64,000 nucleotides of DNA, taken from the NCBI GenBank assembly GCA_032622095.1, contig CP136064.1, positions 279,085,614-279,149,613 on the forward strand, given 5' to 3'. The DNA comes from Siphonodentalium dalli. Taxonomy: Eukaryota; Mollusca; Scaphopoda; Gadilida; Siphonodentaliidae. The position numbers were made by a program, and so were the translations under genes. The notes beneath the pieces are model-generated. The model was not told the DNA's origin. It searched no databases and was given only the letters and a program-made list of their open reading frames with translations. Of this stretch, positions 5,705-64,000 are shown in pieces. Numbering within the stretch: the stretch's first letter is position 1; each line of letters opens with the position of its first letter.

Positions 5705-8700
5705 CGTAGTTGTACTGAAGGCTGTACTGTATGGAAGGTTGTACTGTACTGAAGGCTGTACTGTACTGAAGGCTATACTAGTAGTTGTACTGAAGGCTGT
5801 ACTGTACTGAAGGCTATACTAGTAGTTGTACTGAAGGCTGTACTGTATGGAAGGTTGTACTGTACTGAAGGCTGTACTGTACTGGAGGCTGTACTGTACT
5901 GAAGGCTGCACTAGTAGCTGTACTTAAGGTTGTACTGTACTGAAGGCTGCACTAGTAGCTGTACTGAAGGTTGTACTGTACTGAAGGCTGTACTAGTAGT
6001 TGTACTGAAGGCTGCACTAGTAGCTGTACTGAAGGCTGTACTGTACTGGAGGCTGTACTACTGAAGGCTATACTAGTAGTTGTACTGAAGGTTGTACTGT
6101 ACTGAAGGCTGTACTAGTAGCTGTACTGAATGCTGTACTGTACTGAAGGCTGTACTGTACTGAAGGCTGTACTGTATGAAGGCTGTACTGTACTGAAGGC
6201 TGTACTGTACTGAAGGCTATACTAGTAGTTGTACTGAAGGCTGTACTGTACTGAAGGCTATACTAGTAGTTGTACTGAAGGCTGTACTGTACTGAAGGTT
6301 GTACTGTACTGAAGGCTGTACTGTACTGAAGGCTGTACTAGTAGTTGTACTGAAGGTTGTACTGTACTGAAGGTTGTACTGTACTGAAGGTTGTACTGTA
6401 CTGAAGGCTATACTAGTAGTTGTACTGAAGGCTGTACTGCATGGAAGGTTGTACTATACTGAAGGCTGTACTACTGAAGGCTATACTAGTAGTTGTACTG
6501 AAGGCTGTACTGTGTGGAAGGTTGTACTGTACTGAAGGCTATACTAGTAGTTGTACTGAAGGCTGTACTGTATGGAATGTTGTACTGTACTGAAGGCTGT
6601 ACTGTACTGAAGGCTGTACTACTGAAGGCTATACTAGTAGTTGTACTGAAGGTTGTACTATACTGAAGGTTGTACTGTACTGAAGGTTGTACTAGTAGTT
6701 GTACTGAAGGTTGTACTGTACTGAAGGCTGTACGGTACTGAAGGTTGTACTAGTAGTTGTACTGAAGGTTGTACTGTACTGAAGGTTGTACTAGTAGTTG
6801 TACTGAAGGTTGTACTAGTAGTTGTACTGAAGGTTGTACTGTACTGAAGGTTGTACTAGTAGTTGTACTGAAGGTTGTACTGTACTGAATGTTGTACTAG
6901 TAGTTGTACTGAAGGTTGTACTGTACTGAAGGTTGTACTAGTAGTTGTACTGAAGGTTGTACTGTACTGAATGTTGTACTGTACTGAAGGCTGTACTGTA
7001 CTGAAGGCTGTACTACTGAAGGCTGTACTACTAGTTGTACTGAAGGTTGTACTGTACTGAAGGTTGTACTGTACTGAAGGCTGTACTGTACTGAAGGTTG
7101 TACTGTACTGAAGGTTGTACTAGTAGTTGTACTGAAGGTTGTACTGTACTAAATATTGTACTGTACTGAAGGCTATACTAGTAGTTGTACCGAAGGTTGT
7201 ACTGTACTGAAGGCTGTACTGTACTGAAGGCTGTACTACTGAAGGCTATACTAGTAGCTGTACTGAAGGCTGTACTGTACTGAAGGCTATACTAGTAGCT
7301 GTACTGAAGGCTGTACTGTACTGAAGGTTGTACTGTACTGAAGGTTGTACTGTACTGAAGGCTGTACTACTGAAGGCTATACTAGTAGTTGTACTGAAGG
7401 CTGTACTGTACTGAAGGCTGTACTGTACTGAAGGTTGTACTAGTAGTTGTACTGAACGTTGTACTGTCCTGAAGGTTGTACTGTACTGAAGGTTGTACTG
7501 TACTGAAGGCTATACTAGTAGTTGTACTGAAGGTTGTACTGTACTGAAGGCTATACTAGTAGTTGTACTGAAGGCTGTACTACTGAAGGCTGTACTAGTA
7601 GTTGTATGGAAGGTTGTACTGTACTGAAGGCTGTACTGTACTGAAGGCTGTACTAGTAGTTGTACTGAAGGTTGCACTGTAATGAAGGTTGTACTGTACT
7701 GAAGGTTGTACTGTACTGAAGGCTGTACTGTACTGAAGGCTATACTAGTAGTTGTACTGAAGGCTGTACTACTGAAGGCTATACTAGTAGTTGTACTGAA
7801 GGTTGTACTGTACTGAAGGCTATACTAGTAGTTGTACTGAAGGCTGTACTGTACTGAAGGCTGTACTGTACTGAAGGTTGTACTAGTAGTTGTACTGAAG
7901 GCTGTACTGTACTGAAGGCTATACTAGTAGTTGTACTGAAGGCTGTACTGTACTGAAGGCTGTACTGTACTGAAGGTTGTACTAGTAGTTGTAATGAAGG
8001 CTGTACTGTACTGAAGGCTATACTAGTAGTTGTACTGAAGGTTGTACTGTACTGAAGGCTATACTAGTAGTTGTACTGAAGGCTGTACTGTACTGAAGGC
8101 TGTACTGTACTGAAGGTTGTACTAGTAGTTGTACTGAAGGCTGTACTGTACTGAAGGCTATACTAGTAGTTGTACTGAAGGCTGTACTGTACTGAAGGCT
8201 ATACTAGTAGTTGTACTGAAGGCTGTACTGTACTGAAGGCTGTACTGTACTGAAGGTTGTACTAGTAGTTGTACTGAAGGTTGTACTGTACTGAAGGTTG
8301 TACTGTACTGAAGGTTGTACTGTACTGAAGGCTATACTAGTAGTTGTACTGAAGGTTGTACTGTACTGGAGGCTATACTAGTAGTTGTACTGAAGGCTGT
8401 ACTGTATGGAAGGTTGTACTGTACTGAAGGCTGTACTGTACTGAAGGCTGTACTAGTAGTTGTACTGAAGGTTGTACTGTACTGAAGGTTGTACTGTACT
8501 GAAGGTTGTACTGTACTGAAGGCTGTACTGTACTGAAGGTTGTACTAGTAGTTGTACTGAAGGTTGTACTGTACTGAAGGTTGTACTGTACTGAAGGTTG
8601 TACTGTACTGAAGGTTGTACTGTACTGAAGGTTGTACTGTACTGAAGGCTGTACTGTACTGAAGGCTGTACTAGTAGTTGTACTGAAGGTTGTACTGTAC

Positions 8701-9325
8701 TGAAGGTTGTACTGTACTGAAGGTTGTACTGTACTGAAGGCTGTACTGTACTGAAGGCTGTACTAGTAGTTGTACTGAAGGTTGTACTGTACTGAAGGTT
8801 GTACTGTACTGAAGGTTGTACTGTACTGAAGGCTGTACTGTACTGAAGGTTGTACTAGTAGTTGTACTGAAGGTTGTACTGTACTGAAGGTTGTACTGTA
8901 CTGAAGGCTATACTAGTAGTTGTACTGAAGGTTGTACTGTACTGAAGGCTATAATAGTAGTTGTACTGAAGGCTGTACTGTATGGAAGGTTGTACTGTAC
9001 TGAAGGCTGTACTGTACTGAAGGCTGTACTAGTAGTTGTACTGAAGGTTGTACTGTACTGAAGGTTGTACTGTACTGAAGGTTGTACTGTACTGAAGGCT
9101 GTACTGTACTGAAGGCTATACTAGTAGTTGTACTGAAGGCTGTACGACTGAAGGCTGTACTAGTAGTTGTACTGAAGGTTGTACTGTACTGAAGGTTGTA
9201 CTGTACTGAAGGTTGTACTGAAGGCTGTACTGAAGGCTGTACTGTACTGAAGGTTGTACTGTACTGAAGGTTGTATTGTACTGAAGGCTGTACTGTATGA
9301 AGGCTGTACTGTACTGAAGGCTAAT
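5705..9325 (+). repeat. 3.6-kb minisatellite of mixed 17-bp and 24-bp units
   Basis: Two interleaved unit types share the stem TGTACTGAAGG(C/T)T. The short unit is GTACTGTACTGAAGGCT (17 bp). The longer one is ATACTAGTAGTTGTACTGAAGG(C/T)T (24 bp). Short CTACTGAAGG variants and TGTATGGAAGG variants also occur. It lies in intron 7. The frame at 9160-9441 on the minus strand is a by-product of this array. Confidence 0.97.
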
Positions 9326-13806: not shown

Positions 13807-13924
13807 GTGACAAAGTGAACATTGCCGATATCATAACTGTACCACAATCCTTCGTATGCCATTGGCCATCTGGAGCCAGGAAATGTGAATCTGTGTCTAT
13901 AAACATTAAACTTGTTGTAGAGTT
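13807..13924 (-). CDS. ACP7: ACP7-like exon 6
   Basis: The acceptor is TTTTTCAG|AACTC and the donor AC|GTGAGT. It encodes the rest of E205 through residue 243 and two bases of codon 244. The protein reads YRHRFTFPG then LWYSYDIGNVHFV, matching the family pattern in which a FxMPG segment is followed by LWYSWDxGxxH. It joins exon 7 in frame to give FVTYNTEYYF. Confidence 0.92.
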
Positions 13925-14714
13925 CTGAAAAATGTACAAATTTGAGAGATACTATAATCAGCTTAAAGGTACATAATCCGGTTCGATTCTGAAACGGAAT
14001 TTCACCAAAAGCCGATTTAGTTAACAAAATTATTTTATTACCAATAAATACTCACATGAATATCAATCGCGATATCATATTTGCCATAAAAGTCCAACAA
14101 TAACGAAATTAGAATTCCCCAACCAGTATTTCCACTTGTAACCAGAAAGGTGCCATATAACATGTCTATTTGCATGGATAAAACATTATTACCGATTCAT
14201 AAATAAGTATAATTCATGTATCTGCACGTCAGCTGTCACAATATATCATTTTCTTGTTGAAGGCGATACTTTTCATCGACTTTCATCCTTCACACAGTCA
14301 AGATTTGCCTCCAGATATGCAAATTTTGCCATTTCTATGTACTTGAAATTTACAAGGGTATGTCCTTTTTACATGGCTTTTACCGTAGTATATCATTGTT
14401 TACCCGACATTATCCCGTTTTACTGGAGTAGAGCCAGGTAAACCATGGTGATTTTACATGGGGCATGAGCGATAACTCTATTTCACAACGGTAAAATACC
14501 ATAGCGAAATACATGGGTGGGAACATTTTATTAGAGCAAAATTACATGGGTGGGTCTACATGTGTGCGTATAATATGTGAAGATTCACTAGATAATTTTT
14601 ACCGGAGTAACACCCTGGTAAAATTACCTGGTTCAAACCACCCTGCTAGAATACCACAGAATACCAGAGTGTTTTTACCATGGTTACCAGATTGTTTTTT
14701 ATAAGGTTACCTAC

Positions 14715-14790
14715 CATGGTTACCAGGCATCCCCATGTATGGCGTATGTGAAGCTAACTTCTCAAGATCTTGGAACCATTTTTCACCTGT
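14715..14790 (-). CDS. ACP7: ACP7-like exon 5: GNH(E) metal motif
   Basis: This is a short exon of 76 nt. The acceptor is TTTCTAAG|ACAG and the donor CATG|GTAGGT. It encodes residues 180-204 plus the first base of E205, ending PYMGMPGNH. Together with exon 6 this makes GNHE, the third metallophosphatase motif (N203 as ligand, H204 as catalytic acid in related enzymes). I found it by searching for the motif that was missing between exons 4 and 6. The phase agrees on both sides. Confidence 0.88.
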
Positions 14791-14967
14791 CTTAGAAAGA
14801 TAACAAAATACCTCAAATTATTAAACTCTTCGTGGCTATATGACCATACTGACTATGGAGGTAAAATGGCATGTAATATGCTACATGTATGCATTGTAGG
14901 CCTATACTAGTATATGTATTGAATCGAGACCTGCAATATTGCAATCGCAGTCATGTATTTCATCTAT

Positions 14968-15385
14968 GCCTGAGTTTAGTGTGCTGCCAGTCATTTACAG
15001 AATGAGGTCCCTGGAGCGGGCTATCATCACTAAATTCACCTTGTGTGGACCTCATTCTGCATGGCATCATCTTCTCTCGATAGTTTCTTCATTCTCAAAT
15101 TTCTATAGAAACTTCTTCACATAGATTCCATTTCTTTTTTTAGTTTAGTTTCTCTATATCCCCAAATTGGTGGACGACACATTGCATAATCAAGGTTCCC
15201 AATGGGTGTATACATCACAATATTCTCCTTTTGAGAACTTTGATCAGAGCTCTGTCTCCCATAACAGATGATGCCATGCAGAACAAGGTCCCAAAAGGGG
15301 TGAATTAGTTATGCCAACCCGCTGTGGGAAAGCATCGATAAATTCCCCCTCTGGGGACCTCATTCTGCAAACTAACGCTTGCACT
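14968..15385. mobile_element. Inverted-repeat element (AATGAGGTCCCC family), copy 1
   Basis: The ends read GCCTGAGTTTAGTGTG..ACAGAATGAGGTCCC and GGGGACCTCATTCTGC. The interior (AGTTTCTTCATTCTCAAATT..AAACTTCTTCACATA..CCCCAAATTGG..GACGACACATTGCATAATC) matches copy 2 at 19944-20402 along its length. Near each end a hairpin forms from TGAATT(T)AGT..ACTAAATTCA. There is no coding capacity, so it is MITE-like. Confidence 0.75.
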
Positions 15386-15473: not shown

Positions 15474-15690
15474 TACAGTAATGCCCTAAATAATTGACCT
15501 GTTAACCACAGCAGAATTATGGGTAACTTTTCAGGATTTAGTCGGATATATGGCTTGTTGCCATTCATCGGAAAGCTCTCCCCGAGAGCTTTCCAATGAA
15601 TGGCAACAAGCCATATTTCCGACTAAATCCTGAAAAGTTACCCATAATTCTGCTGTGGTTAAGAAGTCGATTACTTAGACATCACTGTAC
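15474..15690. mobile_element. Near-perfect palindromic element, 217 bp
   Basis: The two arms, about 100 bp each, mirror each other around GCTCTCCCCGAGAGC at about 15580. The arm contains GAATTATGGGTAACTTTTC and ATGGCTTGTTGCCATTCAT; the ends read TACAGTAATGCCCTAA and TTACTTAGACATCACTGTA. Other copies are broken at 11273-12302 and 23653-24241. Confidence 0.85.
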
Positions 15691-17569: not shown

Positions 17570-19180
17570 CCACTCCTCAAATGGTGTACCGATGTGTTGA
17601 TAATAATTAAACACTTACCACTCCTCAAATGGTGTACCGGTGCATTGATAATAATGTTTCCATGAGGCTCGCGGAGATCGCCTGATGTTTCACGCCGGAT
17701 GGTGTTCTGTGCGTTGATAATAATTAAACACTTACCACTCCATGAGGCTCGCGGAGATCGCCTGATGTTTCATGCCGGATGGTGTTCTGTGCGTTGATAA
17801 TAATTAAACACTTACCACTCCATGAGGCTCGCGGAGATCGCCCGATGTTTCATGACGGATGGTGTTCTGTGCGTTGATAATAATTAAACACTTACCACTC
17901 CATGAGGCTCGCGGAGATCGCCCGATGTTTCATGACGGATGGTGTTCTGTGCGTTGATAATAATTAAACACTTACCACTCCATGAGGCTCGCGGAGATCG
18001 CCTGATGTTTCATGCCGGATGGTGTTCTGTGCGTTGATAATAATTAAACACTTACCACTCCATGAGGCTCGCGGAGATCGCCCGATGTTTCATGCCGGAT
18101 GGTGTTCTGTGCGTTGATAATAATTAAACACTTACCACTCCATGAGGCTCGCGGAGATCGCCTGATGTTTCATGCCGGATGGTGTTCTGTGCGTTGATAA
18201 TAATTAAACACTTACCACTCCATGAGGCTCGCGGAGATCGCCTGATGTTTCATGCCGGATGGTGTTCTGTGCGTTGATAATAATTAAACACTTACCGCTC
18301 CATGAGGCTCGCGGAGATCGCCCGATGTTTCATGACGGATGGTGTTCTGTGCGTTGATAATAATTAAACACTTACCGCTCCATGAGGCTCGCGGAGATCG
18401 CCCGATGTTTCATGACGGATGGTGTTCTGTGCGTTGATAATAATTAAACACTTACCACTCCATGAGGCTCGCGGAGATCGCCTGATGTTTCATGACGGAT
18501 GGTGTTCTGTGCGTTGATAATAATTAAACACTTACCACTCCATGAGGCTCGCGGAGATCGCCTGATGTTTCATGCCGGATGGTGTTCTGTGCATTGATAA
18601 TAATTAAACACTTACCACTCCATGAGGCTCGCGGAGATCGCCCGATGTTTCATGACGGATGGTGTTCTGTGCGTTGATAATAATTAAACACTTACCACTC
18701 CATGAGGCTCGCGGAGATCGCCTGATGTTTCATGCCGGATGGTGTTCTGTGCGTTGATAATAATTAAACACTTACCACTCCATGAGGCTCGCGGAGATCG
18801 CCTGATGTTTCATGCCGGATGGTGTTCTGTGCGTTGATAATAATTAAACACTTACCACTCCATGAGGCTCGCGGAGATCGCCCGATGTTTCATGACGGAT
18901 GGTGTTCTGTGCGTTGATAATAATTAAACACTTACCACTCCATGAGGCTCGCGGAGATCGCCCGATGTTTCATGACGGATGGTGTTCTGTGCGTTGATAA
19001 TAATTAAACACTTACCACTCCATGAGGCTCGCGGAGATCGCCCGATGTTTCATGACGGATGGTGTTCTGTGCGTTGATAATAATTAAACACTTACCACTC
19101 CATGAGGCTCGCGGAGATGGCCCGATGTTTCATGCCGGATGGTGCACCGATGCGTTGATAATAATTAAACACTTACCACT
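17570..19180 (-). repeat. 80-bp minisatellite carrying the exon-4 splice donor in every unit
   Basis: Read on the minus (transcribed) strand, every unit contains GAGTG|GTAAGTGTTTAATT. There are 20 occurrences of CTTACC(A/G)CTC on the plus strand: one at about 17616, eighteen at exact 80-bp steps from 17731 to 19091, and the last at 19172, which is the real exon-4 donor. Other unit text is GATCTCCGCGAGCCTCATG. Units differ at a few fixed sites (CCC/CCT, GCC/GAC, ACTC/GCTC). Confidence 0.97.
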
Positions 19181-19329
19181 CCTCCTACTTTCCATATATC
19201 ATAAGCGAAATCACCTAAATGCCATATTGCATCAAATTCTGTTTTGTTCACTTCCATGAGTAACGCCGGAAGTGTTGTATGGTCAACGTATCCCCAGTCG
19301 CCATACACAAGATATTTTGCTACCCAATT
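19177..19329 (-). CDS. ACP7: ACP7-like exon 4: metal motifs GDWG and GDFAY
   Basis: The acceptor is TTTTAG|AATTGG and the donor GTG|GTAAGTG. The exon is 153 nt, phase 0 at both ends, residues 129-179. It contains YGDWG (D139) and HLGDFAYD (D168, Y171), the first two metallophosphatase motifs including the tyrosine ligand that gives these enzymes their colour. The donor is the last of 20 near-identical donor-like sites: the adjoining intron consists of an 80-bp minisatellite whose units each carry a copy of the same GTG|GTAAGTGTTTAA junction (see 17570-19180). Confidence 0.95.
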
Positions 19330-19943: not shown

Positions 19944-20402
19944 TCTGAGTTTAGAATGCCTGCCATTTTCAGAATGAGGTCCCCAGAGGGTGAATTTAGT
20001 GATGCTATCCAGCACAGTGGGCTAGCATCACTAAACTCAACCTCTGGGGACCTCATTCGGCTTATGCACCATCTTCTCTGGAAAGTTTCTTTTTTATCAA
20101 ATTTCTAAAAAAACTTCTTCACATATATTCTATTTCTTTTGTAGTTTAGTTTTTCTATATCCCCAAATTGGAAGACGAAACATTGCATAATCGAGGTTCC
20201 CAATGGGTGTACATCACAATTCAACTTTTGGGACCTTTGATATGAAATTCTGAGTCTATGTCTCCCATAGCAGATGAGGCCATGCAGAATGAGGTCCCAA
20301 GAGGGTGAATTTAGTAAAGCTAGCCTGCTGTGCCGGATAGCGTCACTATATTCACCCTCTGGGGACCTCATTCTGCAAATAACAGGCACAATAAACTCAG
20401 GC
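19944..20402. mobile_element. Inverted-repeat element (AATGAGGTCCCC family), copy 2
   Basis: Ends CTGAGTTTAGAATGCC and GGCACAATAAACTCAG. Two terminal hairpins: AGAGGGTGAATTTAGTGATG pairs with CATCACTAAACTCAACCTCT near the left, and a similar pair near 20300-20360. The interior matches copy 1 (14968-15385). It sits in intron 3, close to the exon-3 donor. Confidence 0.78.
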
Positions 20403-20518: not shown

Positions 20519-20623
20519 TCCTCGTTCTCTGAGAGTCTTGAAGTTATATATAGAAGACGATGCTGTACCATTCACACCACGACATATGACTGTATAGTAA
20601 TATTTAGTTCCATGTTGAAGATT
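20519..20623 (-). CDS. ACP7: ACP7-like exon 3: end of N-terminal domain
   Basis: The acceptor is TTTCAG|AATC and the donor GGA|GTGAGT. The exon is 105 nt, phase 0 at both ends, residues 94-128. It encodes the GTKYYYTV strand and the linker SSIYNFKTLRERG, which in this family precede the catalytic domain. A 35-codon symmetric exon could be skipped without a frameshift. Confidence 0.9.
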
Positions 20624-63279: not shown

Positions 63280-64000
63280 TGGTGTGTGTATAAGTATACA
63301 GCGAGTGGTTGTAATTGGTGCGTGTATAAGTATACAGCGATGGTTGTCATTGGTGTTTGTATAAGTATACAGCGAGTGGCTGTCATTGGTGCGTGTATAA
63401 GTATACAGCGAGTGGCTGTCATTGGTGCGTGTATAAGTATACAGCGAGTGGTTATCATTGGTGCGTGTATAAGTATACAGCGAGTGGTTGTCATTGGTGT
63501 GTGTATAAGTATACAGCGAGTGGCTGTCATTGGTGCGTGTATAAGTATACAGCGAGTGGCTGTCATTGGTGCGTGTATAAGTATACAGCGAGTGGTTATC
63601 ATTGGTGCGTGTATAAGTATACAGCGAGTGGTTGTCATTGGTGTATGTATAAGTATACAGCGAGTGGTTGTCATTGGTGCGTGTATAAGTATACAGCGAG
63701 TGGCTGTCATTGGTGCGTGTATAAGTATACAGCGAGTGGTTATCATTGGTGCGTGTATAAGTATACAGCGAGTGGTTGTCATTGGTGTGTGTATAAGTAT
63801 ACAGCGAGTGGCTGTCATTGGTGCGTGTATAAGTATACAGCGAGTGGCTGTCATTGGTGCGTGTATAAGTATACAGCGAGTGGTTATCATTGGTGCGTGT
63901 ATAAGTATACAGCGAGTGGTTGTCATTGGTGCGTGTATAAGTATACAGCGAGTGGCTGTCATTGGTGCGTGTATAAGTATACAGCGAGTGGTTCTCATTG
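63280..64000 (+). repeat. Four-unit (144-bp) higher-order repeat
   Basis: The units cycle as GGTTATCAT, GGTTGTCAT, GGCTGTCAT, GGCTGTCAT with mostly GTGCG linkers, for at least four cycles (one with a substitution), and the pattern runs to the window end. Confidence 0.82.

Follow-up and report, generated by a model that had tools for sequence, protein, structure and literature searches.

How does the splice donor of one exon come to stand in a row of about twenty copies, and how can the gene carry them? The question is raised by a 64,000-bp stretch of the scaphopod Siphonodentalium dalli genome (GCA_032622095.1, CP136064.1, positions 279,085,614 to 279,149,613 of the forward strand; this whole stretch is the window, and positions are counted from its first base). 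On its minus strand lies a purple-acid-phosphatase-like gene, and the donor of exon 4 of this gene is part of a tandem repeat at 17571-19182. We consider it probable that this is an exon-boundary minisatellite of the kind known as "mirages" in lancelets, formed from exon 4 and intron 4, recurrent in the genome and tolerated since splicing hides the array.

The array contains 21 donor-like copies (the bar marks the exon-intron boundary): 18 read GTG|GTAAGTG, two read GCG|GTAAGTG (18376 and 18296), and the farthest one has decayed to GTG|GTAAATT. The splice signal is carried by the units, with GTAAGTG kept in 20 of the 21. The original prediction of 20 copies of GTG|GTAAGTG at 80-bp spacing was right about the array and its place, but only 18 copies are exact, and the 19 gaps between the GTAAGTG copies measure 81 bp, then exactly 80 bp 17 times, then 117 bp, with the decayed copy 48 bp farther on. 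As had been proposed, the exon-proximal copy is the exon's own donor (19177 is the last exon base), and the array spans the boundary, since every 80-bp unit includes a few exon bases. Tandem Repeats Finder (TRF) gives it a score of 2857. The parts are as follows:

17659..19182, minus strand: 80-bp tandem array; TRF, 19.0 copies, 98% match
80-bp unit: last 3-6 nt of exon 4 plus 74-77 nt of intron 4
19096..19176, minus strand: unit next to exon 4 and first of the array (81 bp), matching the interior query unit at 93% identity
17571..17658, minus strand: degenerate distal end, with a partial unit, a GAGGAGTG|GTAAGTG copy and the decayed GTG|GTAAATT copy (17571)
17619: last exon-like base of the GAGGAGTG|GTAAGTG copy, a 48-bp unit with eight exon bases followed by intron

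The 15-mer GTGGTAAGTGTTTAA has 21 matches in the 2.23 Gb genome, 18 of them inside the array and one at the donor of a paralogue. Since the reversed pattern, used as a control, is found 16 times, it is the clustering of the matches and not their genome-wide total that argues against chance. The 17 interior units differ on average by 1.4 of 80 bases, whereas the first unit, with several changes, and the rearranged distal end diverge more. Four sites vary among the interior units, and their variants occur in mixed order. An assembler that invented the number or the place of the repeats could also be invoked, but the mixed order and the edges unlike the interior argue against it, as does the similar architecture with unrelated units on other contigs (see below), and we hold such an artefact to be very improbable.

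The origin of the array can be read from the paralogues. Among the best candidates scored, the sole match to the unit outside the array is a 78-bp copy with 90% identity at the exon-4 donor of a paralogue (C4:278994445-278994522, 110 kb from the array), where it is present once. The flank of this paralogue continues CATGGAAACATT, and the last 80-bp unit of the window ends alike, whereas in the other units CATGGA is followed at the unit junction by GTGGTAAG or GCGGTAAG, with a GGA microhomology (CATGGA/GTGGTAAG). GTG|GTAAGTG at the exon-4 donor position is common to four family members, including the window gene, and two paralogues on another contig have it without the 80-bp unit. Given the single-copy donor of the paralogue and the common right-hand flank, the array is, on sequence comparison, derived from the host gene's own exon-4 boundary, between two GGA microhomologies, in line with the original prediction that it grew out of this boundary. 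Such junctions are expected if a segment bounded by one GGA in exon 4 and another in intron 4 was duplicated in tandem. Alternatively, a pre-existing satellite or transposon could have been inserted beside exon 4, which then took its donor from the repeat. The genome is indeed full of tandem repeats, but the finding of the unit only once elsewhere among the best candidates, at a paralogue donor, and the donor position common to four family members make this explanation hardly credible.

Between exon 4 and that of the paralogue (43 codons), the synonymous divergence (dS) is 0.28 and the nonsynonymous divergence (dN) 0.03. These values show the phosphatase gene to be constrained. Compared with this dS, the few differences among the interior units indicate growth or homogenisation after the split of the gene pair. 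The eight exon bases in the distal 48-bp unit suggest that this boundary was also duplicated on a previous or independent occasion. As a separate observation on the gene pair, identity to the neighbouring paralogue reaches 97% at ~14106-15016, a stretch that includes exon 5, against ~82-93% in most of the remaining matching stretches, and the 72 compared nt of exon 5 show no difference, which suggests that gene conversion has acted on the pair.

What would the extra donors do to the transcript? The translation of exons 3 to 6 matches the Pfam domain Metallophos (PF00149) and a purple acid phosphatase in PDB. Their splice sites were inferred from homology and consensus:

20519..20623, minus strand: exon 3; intron 3 has 1189 bp
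19177..19329, minus strand: exon 4 of the purple-acid-phosphatase-like gene, 153 nt, phase 0, ending ...GDFAYDIWKVGGV; donor GTG|GTAAGTG
14715..14790, minus strand: exon 5 (TGEKWFQDLEKLASHTPYMGMPGNH), acceptor ttctaag|ACAGG; intron 4 has 4386 bp
13807..13924, minus strand: exon 6 (ELYNKFNVYRHRFTFPGSRW...)

Exon 4 ends in phase 0, so reading through its donor gives GTA AGT GTT TAA, an immediate stop, and the stretches coding for the motifs GNH (14724), AHSP (10932) and AHEH (4023) are located downstream; both points bear out the earlier note. Recursive splicing was considered and rejected: a ratchet splice site is a zero-length exon with AG|GT juxtaposed after a pyrimidine tract, and the contexts GTG|GTAAGTG and GCG|GTAAGTG have no adjoining AG. 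The stop codon, together with 20 intact GTAAGTG donors, is what would be expected if the decoys worked, with occasional use extending exon 4 into the stop and copy number tuning the amount of functional mRNA (a poison exon or a U1 sponge). Minisatellite donors can indeed be used, as in human IFI6 (6-16, G1P3), where a minisatellite supplies multiple splice donors and several are used, according to PMC4526556, which cites Turri et al. 1995.

On the reading that the array is tolerated, exon 4, placed between introns of 1.2 and 4.4 kb, would be recognised across the exon. The donor closest to its acceptor would be used, as exon definition predicts by analogy with human data, and the farther copies would be removed with the intron. 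In PMC9225289, each of five minigenes carried a pair of strong, identical CAG/guaagu donors, separated by 52 nt and placed in an exon-definition context, and only the upstream donor was used, a result that also speaks against working decoys. For near-equal natural donors, the upstream preference was seen in exon-definition architecture too (PMC9225289).

Is the window gene alone in carrying such an array? Besides it, six loci of the phosphatase family were listed, and arrays crossing a splice site were found in four of them. Both copies on C9 have a 48-bp array on the exon-5 donor, with 8 decoys each, and one C6 copy has a 49-bp array at the same site (exon 5 of the other C6 copy was outside the search). 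Both C6 copies contain 56-bp arrays on the exon-4 acceptor, that of C6a with 69 decoy acceptors, 67 of which keep the AG, and a 61-bp array that begins some tens of bases past the exon-4 donor. Such acceptor arrays mirror the donor arrays, and the acceptor nearest the exon body would be the one used. No boundary array was found in the stretches fetched for the C4 neighbour and C2. An array over the exon-4 donor itself was present in none of the six paralogous loci in the stretch read; this absence is a point against regulation by decoy donors, though the 61-bp array of the C6 copies lies close downstream of that donor. In the C9 paralogues (L002 and L007/L003), the exon-5 units of 48 bp, a multiple of 3, consist mostly of exon (LAAHTPYMGFPGNH) followed by the donor. 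In L002 tblastn reads through two to three units without a stop, and an unspliced version could remain open.

The survey was extended to exons of three unrelated conserved families, located by hidden Markov model (HMM) matches and taken with 500 bp on each side. A boundary array was called automatically when a TRF repeat with a score of at least 50 and a period of at least 15 covered at least 4 nt of the match and at least 10 nt past its edge. For kinesin, 72 of 123 matches were used (80 without internal stops, the weakest at 4.4e-6, minus 8 from near-identical paralogues). For SNF2, 40 of 73 were retained: matches containing stops were removed, as were the weakest match and two additional ones from the L100 array, and near-identical pairs were reduced to a single member. 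The 20 myosin exons, out of 85 matches, were picked by hand to limit near-identical copies. This hand choice of exons could bias the share with arrays.

Automatic calls were obtained for 12 of 72 kinesin, 3 of 40 SNF2 and 2 of 20 myosin exons. After reading the sequences, 14 of the 15 kinesin and SNF2 calls were kept (14 of 112 exons), as were both myosin calls. The total is 16 of 132 exons with boundary-crossing arrays, 10 at donors and 6 at acceptors, and two of the donor cases (L056 and L128) have only about two copies. L069 was rejected as a true crossing, its array ending ~8 nt before the likely acceptor. L049 (a 30-bp unit, 14.5 copies) was kept for its donor side only, its borderline 5' side (2-3 exonic nt) not being counted, and L115, a small repeat wholly within the coding match, was left out of the count. 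As examples, in L058 the kinesin SSRSH stretch is present four times, with GTAAGTAT or a variant of it after each copy, and L100 repeats the SNF2 Walker-A stretch, with copies preceded by TTTCAG. Dinucleotide-shuffled versions of the 112 loci from kinesin and SNF2 contained no arrays, against 70 TRF rows in the real loci. Similar architecture with unrelated units is found on six of nine contigs (C1, C4, C5, C6, C7 and C9).

The claim that a tandem array on an exon boundary is uncommon does not hold in this genome, given the sampled exons together with the family loci. We see about an even chance that such arrays form a genome-wide class, affecting around one exon in 8, with splice-site choice mostly positional across the exon. 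If the class is real, the choice must be mostly positional, since sequence hardly distinguishes the competing sites. Should the three families sampled be representative, the loci would number on the order of ten thousand.

Do the arrays seek out splice sites? A mutational hot spot for tandem duplication at these sites, for instance through R-loops or transcription-linked breaks, would explain their recurrence. In the kinesin set, profiled over 71 donors and 71 acceptors including weak sites, array coverage is 0.113 at the donor, which tops the intron range of 0.06-0.11 out to 440 bp (0.08-0.11 at 100-400 bp). Arrays cross 9 of 72 real 3' edges, compared with 4-8 of 72 pseudo-edges placed 100-410 bp into the intron, and donor arrays are found in three of the four gene families looked at (purple acid phosphatase, kinesin and myosin). 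However, this apparent excess is small, no donor array was found among the 40 SNF2 exons, and the 5' edges (4 of 72) fall within the pseudo-edge range of 3-9 of 72. Flank coverage is 8.4% for kinesin, 8.75% for SNF2 and 5.6% for myosin; by comparison, arrays cross 10 of 132 donors and 6 of 132 acceptors. The arrays thus show no clear preference for donors and no clear avoidance of them, and acceptors are if anything slightly avoided. Since arrays cover donors to nearly the same extent as introns, strong duplication hot spots at boundaries are unsupported, and we regard the hot-spot explanation as unlikely.

The state of the decoys bears on their function. Decoy donors keep the GT in 68 of 74 cases (61.7 expected from the other positions) and decoy acceptors keep the AG in 89 of 101 (93.9 expected). 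Unit lengths have no frame bias, being divisible by 3 in 7 of 18 arrays, or 7 of 20 with the two myosin units (67 and 32 bp). Retention and unit lengths fit DNA that is spliced out and little constrained. As to relaxed protein constraint in the exon copies of the decoys, unique changes are too few to carry weight, 15 nonsynonymous and 9 synonymous, compared with a neutral expectation of 17.8 and 6.2 (10 arrays; L033 and C9a have no variant and L070 no decoy). With donors hit about as often as nearby intron, decoys mostly intact and no bias in frame, we read the arrays as tolerated minisatellite growth, and the poison exon or U1 sponge of the original prediction finds no support. Similar arrays at many unrelated exons also fit tolerance better than regulation, and we think it quite improbable that the decoy donors of exon 4 work.

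Several points weigh against tolerance. The predicted choice of donor is extrapolated from human data, in which the upstream preference among near-equal natural donors, taken over all classes, is no more than 60%; where donors differ in strength the preference leans downstream, and identical donors that are weak lead to skipping of larger exons (PMC9225289). By consensus, GTG|GTAAGTG makes a weaker donor than CAG|GTAAGT, and human IFI6 does use several minisatellite donors (PMC4526556). In the kinesin set, coverage just before acceptors is 0.042, below that of the intron, and acceptor arrays may be partly selected against. Local selection against decoys could also be behind the losses in two arrays: in the SNF2 exon L118 (C5:65387274-65388420) 9 of 10 decoy acceptors have no AG, unlike the other six acceptor arrays counted, and in exon 5 of C6b 4 of 8 decoy donors have no GT. 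The retention counts themselves are soft: a decoy was recognised by its resemblance to the authentic site, and the copies of one array have a common origin.

Other repeats are present in the window. A 36-bp satellite (~937 copies, 95% match) fills it from 29954 to its end at 64000. An imperfect minisatellite of 3.6 kb (5711-9322; unit ~17, 41 or 58 bp, TGTACTGAAGGC...) lies between the AHSP and AHEH coding stretches of the same phosphatase gene. A long and almost perfect hairpin, formed by CAGAATTATGGGTAACTTTTCAGGATTTAGTCGG... with its reverse complement, was seen by eye in intron 4 at ~15495-15655. Inverted-repeat elements (GCAGAATGAGGTCCCCAGAGGGTGAAT...) at ~19980-20380 and 15000-15370, which recur in introns of the gene and its paralogue, are presumably miniature inverted-repeat transposable elements (MITEs). 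Elsewhere in the genome, the mollusc-type hemocyanin domain PF14830 gave no match, but the control genomes gave none either, so the domain need not be absent.

If tolerated, the exon-4 array would be near-neutral and free to change in length, and it would keep functional splice sites and pieces of exon at hand, from which new introns or exons could arise. The choice among equal splice sites has been studied with built minigenes (e.g. PMC9225289); in this genome, conserved genes present the same choice naturally and many times over, both at donors and at acceptors, with between 1 and 69 decoys. The loci show tandem splice-site duplication at an early stage, which has been proposed as raw material for new introns (PMC3087553 and PMC2812944). 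If such arrays do form a genome-wide class, they would allow exon definition to be tested in nature on the scale of a genome, and would be a lasting source of new introns and exons in an animal that is not a lancelet.

Within the terms searched, we found no genome-wide count of such arrays in the open literature, although related systems are known. In human segmental duplications, variable internal tandem repeats have been proposed as an intron source (PMC2812944). They too show minisatellite growth at exon-intron boundaries in young paralogues, but these arrays are short, averaging 4 copies of a 30-bp unit, and coding sequence holds half of them. IFI6 shares with the window gene a minisatellite with multiple donors; in the window gene, by contrast, a downstream donor would give an immediate stop. 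The IFI6 unit is said to be 12 bp long, its downstream copies reportedly being used as mRNA donors and giving isoforms. The closest relatives are the lancelet mirages, reported in Adh3, the globins BflGb6 and BflGb9, TnC and PGBD5, whose units also carry splice signals and whose interiors are homogenised while the cluster edges are not; regular splicing is undisturbed by them according to both papers (PMC3087553, PMC3902484), and they have been proposed as a general phenomenon in cephalochordates (PMC3087553). By its sequence, the window array shows structural traits of a mirage, being boundary-spanning and host-derived, with a splice signal in its units, a homogenised interior and diverged edges. 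The lancelet mirages are described in these papers gene by gene and with few copies (6 and 3 in two BflGb6 haplotypes), whereas here 16 of 132 sampled exons are affected, with up to 69 decoy acceptors at a single exon (C6a). The kind of array is already known from lancelet mirages and human IFI6; its prevalence in this genome is the surprise.
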